64,000 nucleotides of DNA, taken from NCBI GenBank assembly GCA_900073065.1, contig FJOG01000002.1, forward strand, positions 1,306,652-1,370,651. The letters run 5' to 3'. A program made the translations under genes and the position numbers. A model generated the notes under the pieces. The model worked only from the letters and a program-made list of their open reading frames with translations. It made no database searches and was not told where the DNA came from. The DNA comes from Phialocephala subalpina. Its lineage: Eukaryota > Ascomycota > Leotiomycetes > Helotiales > Mollisiaceae. Positions 26,152-45,749 of this stretch are shown one piece after another (positions within the stretch are counted from its first letter, which is position 1; every line of letters starts with the position of its first letter).

Positions 26152-26176
26152 CCGTATAGATTTAAATAACAAAATC
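26152..26176 (+). promoter_or_regulatory. Conserved AT-rich element upstream of tRNA-Lys
   Basis: This 25-bp stretch, with core TATAGATTTAAATAACAAAA, spans -45 to -21 relative to the tRNA. The same 25 bases occur without mismatch at 45503-45527, at nearly the same distance (-43 to -19) from the tRNA-Ala gene. An upstream TATA-like element is known to help TFIIIB placement at tRNA genes in some fungi such as Schizosaccharomyces pombe; extension to this organism is inference. Confidence 0.7.
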
Positions 26177-26196: not shown

Positions 26197-26293
26197 GCCC
26201 GGCTGGCACAATTGGTTAGCGCGTGGGCCTTTTAAGACATTCAAACGTCCAAAGAGCAGCCCAAGGTTGAGAGTTCGAGCCTCTCGTCGGGCG
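26197..26293 (+). tRNA. tRNA-Lys(UUU) with 23-nt intron
   Basis: Acceptor stem GCCCGGC (26197-26203) pairs with GTCGGGC (26286-26292); discriminator G. D arm GCAC/GCGC has one mismatch. Anticodon stem TGGGC/GCCCA encloses loop CTTTTA-A with anticodon TTT at 26231-26233. An intron of 23 nt (26235-26257) sits one base 3' of the anticodon, the canonical position. T arm GAGAG-TTCGAGC-CTCTC is perfect. Confidence 0.93.
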
Positions 26294-45545: not shown

Positions 45546-45739
45546 GGGCGCGTGGTTTAGGTACGCTCTAATCATCCAGACATACCATACAAATCCTAAC
45601 ATCCTCCAGTGGTATAATTTTCCCTTAGCATCTTTAAGATGACATTCAGTCTGGGAAAGGTCCTGGTAAGCTACAACTTCTGCATAATTCAAAAGAATTC
45701 GAATTAACAATCATTAGGGTTCGATTCCCAGCGCGTCCA
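45546..45739 (+). tRNA. tRNA-Ala(AGC), interrupted by three intervening sequences
   Basis: Acceptor stem GGGCGCG (45546-45552) pairs with CGCGTCC (45732-45738), discriminator A. The G3:U70 pair, the alanine identity mark, is present. Anticodon stem TTCCC/GGGAA (45620-45624, 45653-45657) encloses TTAGCA-T with anticodon AGC (45627-45629). A canonical 21-nt intron (45631-45651) follows position 37. Two more inserts exist. Insert 1 (45561-45609, 49 bp) splits the D loop between positions 15 and 16; it runs GTACGC...CTAAC...CCAG. Insert 2 (45666-45717, 52 bp) splits the 5' strand of the T stem; it runs GTAAGC...TTAAC...TTAG. Removing them restores A14, G18 G19 and A21, and a perfect T arm CTGGG-TTCGATT-CCCAG, leaving 72 nt. 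Both inserts look exactly like this genome's mRNA introns. The D stem is weak (about 3 pairs). Whether the product is functional is unknown. Confidence 0.75.
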
Positions 45740-45743
45740 CTTA

Positions 45744-45749
45744 TTTTTT
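45744..45749 (+). terminator. Pol III terminator of tRNA-Ala
   Basis: Six T starting 5 nt after the tRNA end, with a second T-run shortly beyond. Confidence 0.7.

Follow-up and report, generated by a model that had tools for sequence, protein, structure and literature searches.

At least 21 tRNA genes of Phialocephala subalpina, belonging to 15 anticodon classes, were found in a partial census to be interrupted, by 28 GT...AG-type inserts in all, and the likely explanation is that spliceosomal introns have invaded nuclear tRNA genes on a large scale in the lineage of this species. The supply of cytoplasmic tRNA, including that of essential isoacceptors without an uninterrupted gene (Cys-GCA, Glu-TTC and Arg-TCT being the candidates), would then depend on the spliceosome acting on RNA polymerase III (Pol III) precursors, and a strong upstream TATA element, by relieving the genes of the need for intact internal promoters, would have made the invasion tolerable. 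A sequence-only reading of a 64,000-nucleotide stretch of the genome (hereafter, the window) had proposed that one tRNA-Ala(AGC) gene carries two spliceosomal-type introns plus a canonical tRNA intron. That interpretation is supported by paralogues in the same genome and by splice signals, and what it describes recurs across the genome and is not confined to a single oddity.

According to the textbook view, tRNA introns are removed by a protein endonuclease and a ligase, and the spliceosome acts on Pol II transcripts. The presence of spliceosomal-type introns in at least 21 tRNA genes would tie splicing directly to translation capacity; if this is true, two splicing systems act on one transcript, and splicing inhibitors or stress are predicted to lower particular tRNAs. 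A genome with split tRNA genes also offers a test of whether spliceosome recruitment requires Pol II or a cap, and its paired empty and filled sites allow intron gain to be studied in genes that have no reading frame. There is a practical side to this as well: tRNA finders miss genes in such genomes, with ARAGORN blind to all three interrupted Ala genes described here.

The interrupted tRNA-Ala(AGC) gene

The gene occupies positions 45546–45739 of the window (Table 1). When both inserts are removed, at exactly the coordinates put forward by the sequence-only reading (45561–45609 and 45666–45717), ARAGORN calls a 72-nt tRNA-Ala(AGC) with a 21-nt intron, in agreement with that proposal. No tRNA is called by ARAGORN when the locus is intact or when the first insert alone is removed, and removal of the second alone gives a nonsense tRNA-SeC. 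The spliced tRNA has the G3:U70 pair, a 7-bp acceptor stem, a perfect T arm and a D stem that, read manually, has three pairs. Several of these features had been recognised beforehand and are borne out here, namely the G3:U70 pair and the perfect T arm, the 21-nt insert at the normal anticodon-loop site (which we place between positions 37 and 38) and the splitting of box A, by intron 1, in a gene whose box B is whole. Free-energy folding of the 72 nt forms the acceptor, anticodon and T arms with the D arm absent (z-score −2.46). A T4 run is found within an exon of the tRNA itself.

Table 1 Features of the tRNA-Ala(AGC) locus and of an ordinary tRNA-Lys(TTT) locus in the window
Feature	Position	Strand	Remarks
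Upstream TATA-like element TATAGATTTAAATAA	45506–45520	+	Exact match; 40 nt 5' of tRNA-Ala
tRNA-Ala exon 1: acceptor 5' strand, positions 8–9, D-stem 5' half to G15 (start of box A)	45546–45560	+	Same in L002–L004
Spliceosomal-type intron 1, D loop	45561–45609	+	49 nt; GTACGC...CCTAAC...CCAG; splits box A
Exon 2, part 1: from the D loop up to position 37, with anticodon AGC	45610–45630	+
Canonical anticodon-loop tRNA intron	45631–45651	+	21 nt; one is present in the uninterrupted paralogue (L004) too
Exon 2, part 2: position 38, 3' strand of the anticodon stem, variable loop, T-stem positions 49–51	45652–45665	+
Spliceosomal-type intron 2, T stem between 51 and 52	45666–45717	+	52 nt; GTAAGC...ATTAAC...TTAG
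Exon 3: box B GGTTCGATTCC, T loop, 3' strand of the acceptor stem, A73	45718–45739	+
T6 run, Pol III-type terminator	45744–45749	+
TATA-like element TATAGATTTAAATAA before tRNA-Lys(TTT)	26155–26169	+	Comparison
Ordinary tRNA-Lys(TTT)	26197–26293	+	Comparison; canonical intron only

An Rfam search of the Ala locus at E ≤ 10 gave no match to RF00005; it returned seven matches, all below their gathering scores, and the lowest E value belonged to a 13-nt tmRNA fragment on the T arm. An ARAGORN scan without introns found no gene in the window, and carries no weight because the ordinary tRNA-Lys was missed too.

To gauge chance, every GTNNG...YTRAY...HAG candidate of 38–90 nt on both strands of the window was removed, singly and in pairs. 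Among the 4823 resulting variants a tRNA was obtained at two places, one being tRNA-Lys (26197), which is intact, and the other the tRNA-Ala gene, whilst 300 block-shuffled and 60 reversed sequences, run under slightly narrower first settings, gave none. A chance origin of the Ala reading was rejected on these figures. False alternative spliced readings do arise where a tRNA is intact already, as at the loci designated L007, L020 and L037.

A census of interrupted tRNA genes

Loci were collected through tRNA, box B and promoter searches of the 68.1 Mb assembly (119 contigs). The genome search with RF00005 scored 63 of 2196 candidates, and the census also drew on 100 of 175 box B places and 100 of 374 promoter places, among the matches listed, which were fetched in part; given the number of RF00005 candidates scored, the census is incomplete, and we give no figure for the share of the genome's tRNA genes that is interrupted. 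It includes three genes each for Ala-AGC and Phe-GAA, two each for Leu-AAG and Glu-TTC, and one each for Arg-TCT, Asp-GTC, Thr-CGT, Thr-TGT, Thr-AGT, an initiator-like Met, Leu-CAG, Cys-GCA, Pro-AGG, Lys-CTT and Gly-CCC. Two inserts are present in seven of the 21. The insert sites lie in the acceptor stem, at position 9/10, in the D loop, at 25/26, in the T stem and in the T loop, the T loop itself being split in Asp-GTC, the second Glu-TTC gene (Glu-TTC b) and Lys-CTT.

Some curation was involved in reaching this count. Dropped from it were the readings at places with an intact tRNA (L007, L020 twice and L037), a poor one at L160 and alternative cuts of L036, L061 and L098. Phe a (L025, where the caller's cut is 5 nt too long) and Leu-CAG (L094, for which ARAGORN makes no call) were added by hand, the Phe a boundary and the Leu-CAG call being manual, and Phe b (L199) and Phe c (L201, labelled Ser by ARAGORN) were also added. 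ARAGORN mislabels the spliced forms of L182 and L201 and offers a competing unspliced reading for L189. For the Arg-TCT gene (L027) it gives, in addition, an intron-free reading that starts inside the insert, and Rfam aligned model positions 6–65 only; the spliced reading, with its full acceptor stem, seems preferable. An uninterrupted Leu-AAG paralogue (L034) labelled Thr by ARAGORN was classed by its likeness to L072.

The tRNA-Phe genes illustrate the variety of sites: L198 has no insert, L025 and L199 have different-looking inserts at 25/26 and L201 has one at 15/16. At a fifth Phe place (L200), a 3' part with a splice-site-like 3' end at 25/26 is seen with no 5' exon in 211 nt. This locus, which would be either a broken copy or a copy with a longer intron, was left out of the count. 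Five further loci (L091, L096, L100, L111 and L126) have a T arm and tRNA-like 5' parts with long unassigned stretches around the anticodon arm, and are possibly further interrupted tRNAs or tRNAs with long anticodon introns.

Uninterrupted copies are present for Ala, Phe, Leu-AAG, Thr-AGT, Pro, Lys-CTT, Asp and the initiator-like Met, and for these isotypes the interrupted copies may thus not be needed by the cell. For Cys-GCA, Glu-TTC, Arg-TCT and Thr-CGT, a genome DNA search, which diverged genes may escape, found no uninterrupted gene; on that basis the cell could not do without splicing for Cys, Glu (GAA) and Arg (AGA) at the least. Split genes escape the whole-genome DNA search (neither L098 nor the interrupted Ala trio came up in it), so the finding that there is no intact gene is only as good as that search.

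Splice signals of the inserts

Ten interrupted genes of five isotypes were aligned with uninterrupted paralogues of the same isotype, an empty-site comparison that assumes no splice motif. In all 15 inserts delimited in this way, GT...AG is allowed at the break and a G is found at +5, and 14 of the 15 have a YTAAY motif with its A located 8–14 nt from the 3' end, whereas 1000 shuffles gave 1.26 on average and never more than 5 of 15. Two-mismatch alignments (one of 84 nt, in L002) were excluded from this test, and a 93-nt L003 alignment that depended on a flank of 5 nt was treated as a chance match and not used.

The full set of 28 inserts has a median length of 51 nt, with 27 falling between 47 and 60 nt. 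Their 3' ends are CAG (13), TAG (12) or AAG (3), the commonest 5' ends are GTAAGC (10) and GTAAGT (4), and the last branch-like A is found 9–14 nt before the end; since the caller required GTNNG and a branch motif, only the 15 motif-free inserts are unbiased in these respects. Leu-AAG b (L102) has an insert of 81 nt with no YTAAY, and a TATA-like match of 7/15.

For comparison, mRNA introns were placed in two genes of the window, with a 2-methylcitrate dehydratase and a monooxygenase as references for spliced alignment (for the former, the closest of the 120 matches listed were from Hyaloscypha sp. PMI_1271, at 94%, and Oculimacula yallundae, at 93%, which points to a helotialean source). Ten introns were placed and six used, two long introns (97 and 84 nt) and two uncertain ones (46 and 50 nt) being omitted; for one of the six, the 3' end could be placed at either of two positions. 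In this small sample the introns are 42–62 nt in length, the same class as the inserts (to which the sequence-only reading had given the modal length of the window's mRNA introns), and begin GTAAGT, GTAAGC (twice), GTAAAG, GTGAGC and GTATGT, with CTAAC, CTGAC (twice), TTAAC and TTGAC or GTAAC seen by eye near the 3' end. The same reading had described GTACGC or GTAAGC starts, CTAAC or TTAAC motifs and CAG or TAG ends, all of which are seen in the two Ala inserts. Base composition differs, with 35% A and 14% G in the tRNA inserts versus 24% A and 18% G in the six mRNA introns.

The bodies of the inserts show no shared family across isotypes (best score 26, against a shuffled mean of 22.8 and maximum of 30). 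With cross-isotype similarity at chance level, introner elements were rejected as a source and the inserts are not one spreading element. Taken as a whole, the sequence evidence is best read as indicating that the inserts are U2-type spliceosomal introns in Pol III tRNA precursors.

Exon conservation in the Ala paralogues

A count of the other Ala(AGC) genes had been called for by the sequence-only reading. Used as a query against the genome, the Ala locus identified four places, which is to say the window copy and three more. Two of these, L002 and L003, are interrupted at the same two sites as the window copy; L004 has neither insert. The three interrupted copies are identical at 72 of 72 exon bases in each pair. 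By contrast, their first inserts align at 59–67% and their second inserts at 63–72% (50–53% with shuffled partners), their 30-nt flanks at 46–68% (shuffled, 51–59%) and their canonical introns at 59–90%. Every exon base has been kept whilst inserts and flanks have drifted, which would not be expected of genes that had ceased to work; decay of the exons at a neutral rate, as in a pseudogene, is not seen in the three Ala copies.

This bears on the suggestion, raised by the earlier reading as that of a retired tRNA, that the interrupted genes are pseudogenes, derived from surplus tRNA genes into which introns or some other DNA had inserted. Uninterrupted Ala, Phe, Leu-AAG, Thr-AGT and Pro copies do exist, as surplus would have it, but retirement is contradicted by the exon identity of the diverged Ala copies and by retention of splice and branch signals, of an upstream element in 18 of 19 genes and of T runs after most of them. 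No intact Cys-GCA, Glu-TTC or Arg-TCT gene was found, moreover, in a search of limited reach, and we regard retirement as very unlikely.

Promoters, terminators and the transcribing polymerase

The TATA-like element TATAGATTTAAATAA is found, allowing up to one mismatch, at 374 places in the genome, compared with 74 for a reversed control. It lies about 40 nt upstream of tRNA genes and is also present upstream of a 5S gene (L187) and an SRP RNA gene (L178), with a version that is one base off, TATAGATTTAAATAT, upstream of a U6 gene (L196). From its distribution the element looks like a shared Pol III promoter of P. subalpina.

Nearly all of the interrupted genes have a similar element 28–60 nt upstream. 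Upstream sequence of 49 nt or more was available for 19 genes, of which 18 match the motif at 11–15 of 15 bases, or 13 of 14 when independent matches only are counted (L140, L141, L177, L182 and L189 having been fetched by the motif); the upstream stretches of Phe b and Phe c are too short for scoring. In random 70-nt stretches of the window, 11/15 is reached in 1.9% and 12/15 in 0.4%. Of 85 distinct places with an exact promoter match, 22 precede an uninterrupted tRNA and eight an interrupted one (seven without L160), this set being enriched for ordinary tRNAs because Rfam matches were fetched first. The remaining 55 have no tRNA under the filter applied, although at least two of these (L136 and L150) are tRNAs by ARAGORN alone.

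A run of at least four Ts is found within 150 nt downstream of the last insert in 19 of the 21 genes, the two Phe exceptions being short stretches; for Gly-CCC the counted run falls inside the gene. Within the inserts, a run of T4 or longer occurs in one of 28, compared with 5.86 in shuffles, a modest depletion that was reached by 8 of 500 shuffles; depletion of T5 is not significant (64 of 500). With T runs downstream, and upstream an element that 5S, SRP RNA and U6 genes have too, the interrupted genes look to be transcribed by Pol III, from what we infer is a TATA-type promoter.

Recruitment of the spliceosome is normally coupled to Pol II, and this coupling would favour the Pol II-made precursor that the sequence-only reading had listed as an option, in which a Pol II transcript is spliced and the tRNA excised from it. 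That possibility is disfavoured, to the point of being highly unlikely, by the element common to the 5S, SRP RNA and U6 genes, by the T runs after most genes and the scarcity of T4 inside the inserts, and by the Schizosaccharomyces pombe U6 RNA, which passages of PMC10484740 describe as a Pol III transcript that is spliced. The same case contradicts the statement, made in that reading, that Pol III transcripts are not, as far as is known, spliceosome substrates.

Transcription from an upstream Pol III promoter may also explain how introns could settle in box A and even in the T loop. According to passages of PMC3978253, an upstream TATA box is important for the transcription of tRNA genes in certain plants and fungi, and Saccharomyces cerevisiae tRNA genes with such a box can be transcribed in vitro without TFIIIC.

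Other sequences are found behind the same element. A small-RNA-like family with a core resembling CGCCTGCCCCGAGCTCAAAAGCGAGAGCACACGCCAT (L143, L149, L155, L156, L164, L171–L173, L175, L184, L190 and L191) is multi-copy and has the TATAGATTTAAATAA promoter with T runs downstream; four copies searched against Rfam (L143, L149, L155 and L173) gave no match. Four other repeat families (L163/L165/L186, L162/L181, L144/L183 and L146/L167) are similarly placed behind TATAGATTTAAATAA with T runs downstream, and six of their nine members (L144, L146, L162, L163, L167 and L183) likewise had no match in Rfam.

A proposed pathway for tRNA-Ala

It is very likely, in our view, that the Ala gene is functional and gives rise to a Pol III transcript from which two U2-type introns are cut by the spliceosome and a third by endonuclease and ligase, yielding a 72-nt tRNA. 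Pol III, aided by the upstream TATA-like element, would transcribe the gene and stop at the T run, producing a precursor with a U2-type intron in the D loop, a second in the T stem and an ordinary intron in the anticodon loop. U1 and U2 would recognise the two GT–AG introns and the spliceosome would join the tRNA exons, after which the spliced tRNA would fold and be trimmed by RNase P and RNase Z, and the anticodon intron would be taken out by TSEN and ligase. Pol III transcription, spliceosomal removal, this order of steps and the freedom of the promoter boxes conferred by the upstream element are what we infer from the features described above. Making the interrupted tRNAs thus probably needs the spliceosome besides the usual tRNA-splicing enzymes.

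Comparison with known systems

Introns of the endonuclease type are marked by a bulge-helix-bulge (BHB) fold. BHB introns are not known to have GT...AG ends or a branch motif at a near-fixed distance. A BHB core with flanking pairs was found in none of the 28 inserts, and three or more core pairs in seven of them (shuffled mean 5.0). Nor do the two Ala inserts, in the D loop and T stem, lie at position 37/38, where only 45631–45651 is found. Thus, whilst the nuclear tRNA genes of Cyanidioschyzon merolae carry ectopic and multiple introns (Soma et al., reviewed in PMC3978253) and were named by the sequence-only reading in listing BHB introns at unusual sites as an option, this fold test, the GT...AG ends in 15 of 15 inserts and the branch motif, which in 14 of 15 keeps a nearly fixed distance, make that option extremely unlikely. 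The two systems are alike in having introns outside 37/38 and more than one per gene, and differ in that the C. merolae introns are described, in the passages concerned, as BHB-mediated, whereas those of P. subalpina have U2-type signals. TATA-like-dependent tRNA transcription has been proposed in algae, according to the same passages (PMC3978253). The nucleomorph of Guillardia theta has ectopic tRNA introns, many without a defined BHB (Kawach et al. 2005, cited in PMC3978253); compared by description only, it resembles P. subalpina in the unusual positions of its introns.

The canonical anticodon-loop introns of fungi, one of which is present in the same Ala gene, are distinguished by their different site and by the lack of GT...AG ends. 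Such introns are removed by TSEN and ligase. An mRNA-type intron was reportedly described by Rogers and colleagues in 1993 in the nuclear 18S rRNA gene of fungi. rRNA is made by Pol I. That case is similar in placing an mRNA-type intron in a stable structural RNA, but the RNA is rRNA, not tRNA.

The nearest precedent found is S. pombe U6, a Pol III transcript with an intron of mRNA type, as in the P. subalpina tRNA genes. The U6 intron is removed by splicing (Tani and Ohshima 1989, 1991, cited in PMC10484740) and is thought, in the same passages, to derive from reverse splicing near catalytic bases. U6 differs in being part of the spliceosome, whereas the P. subalpina inserts affect 15 tRNA anticodon classes, at many positions, with up to two per gene and beside canonical tRNA introns. 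A 2026 review classes tRNA splicing as spliceosome-independent (PMC13149111), and a full-text literature search, covering titles and abstract openings with most subscription journals and bioRxiv beyond reach, returned no report of spliceosomal introns in nuclear tRNA genes. The type of intron seen in P. subalpina is familiar; the class of RNA that carries it is one for which this search yielded no earlier case. The Ala T-stem design gave no matches in contigs from prokaryote genomes, in which any match would have to come from contaminating fungal DNA.

Other Pol III genes of P. subalpina were also surveyed. With 47 of 2963 candidates scored in a search that split copies would escape, 23 5S genes over the Rfam cut-off are all 120 nt in length with no large inserts. 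With 48 of 3913 candidates scored in a search that a split U6 would likewise escape, seven U6 genes are full length on the model and free of large inserts, at 103–112 nt.
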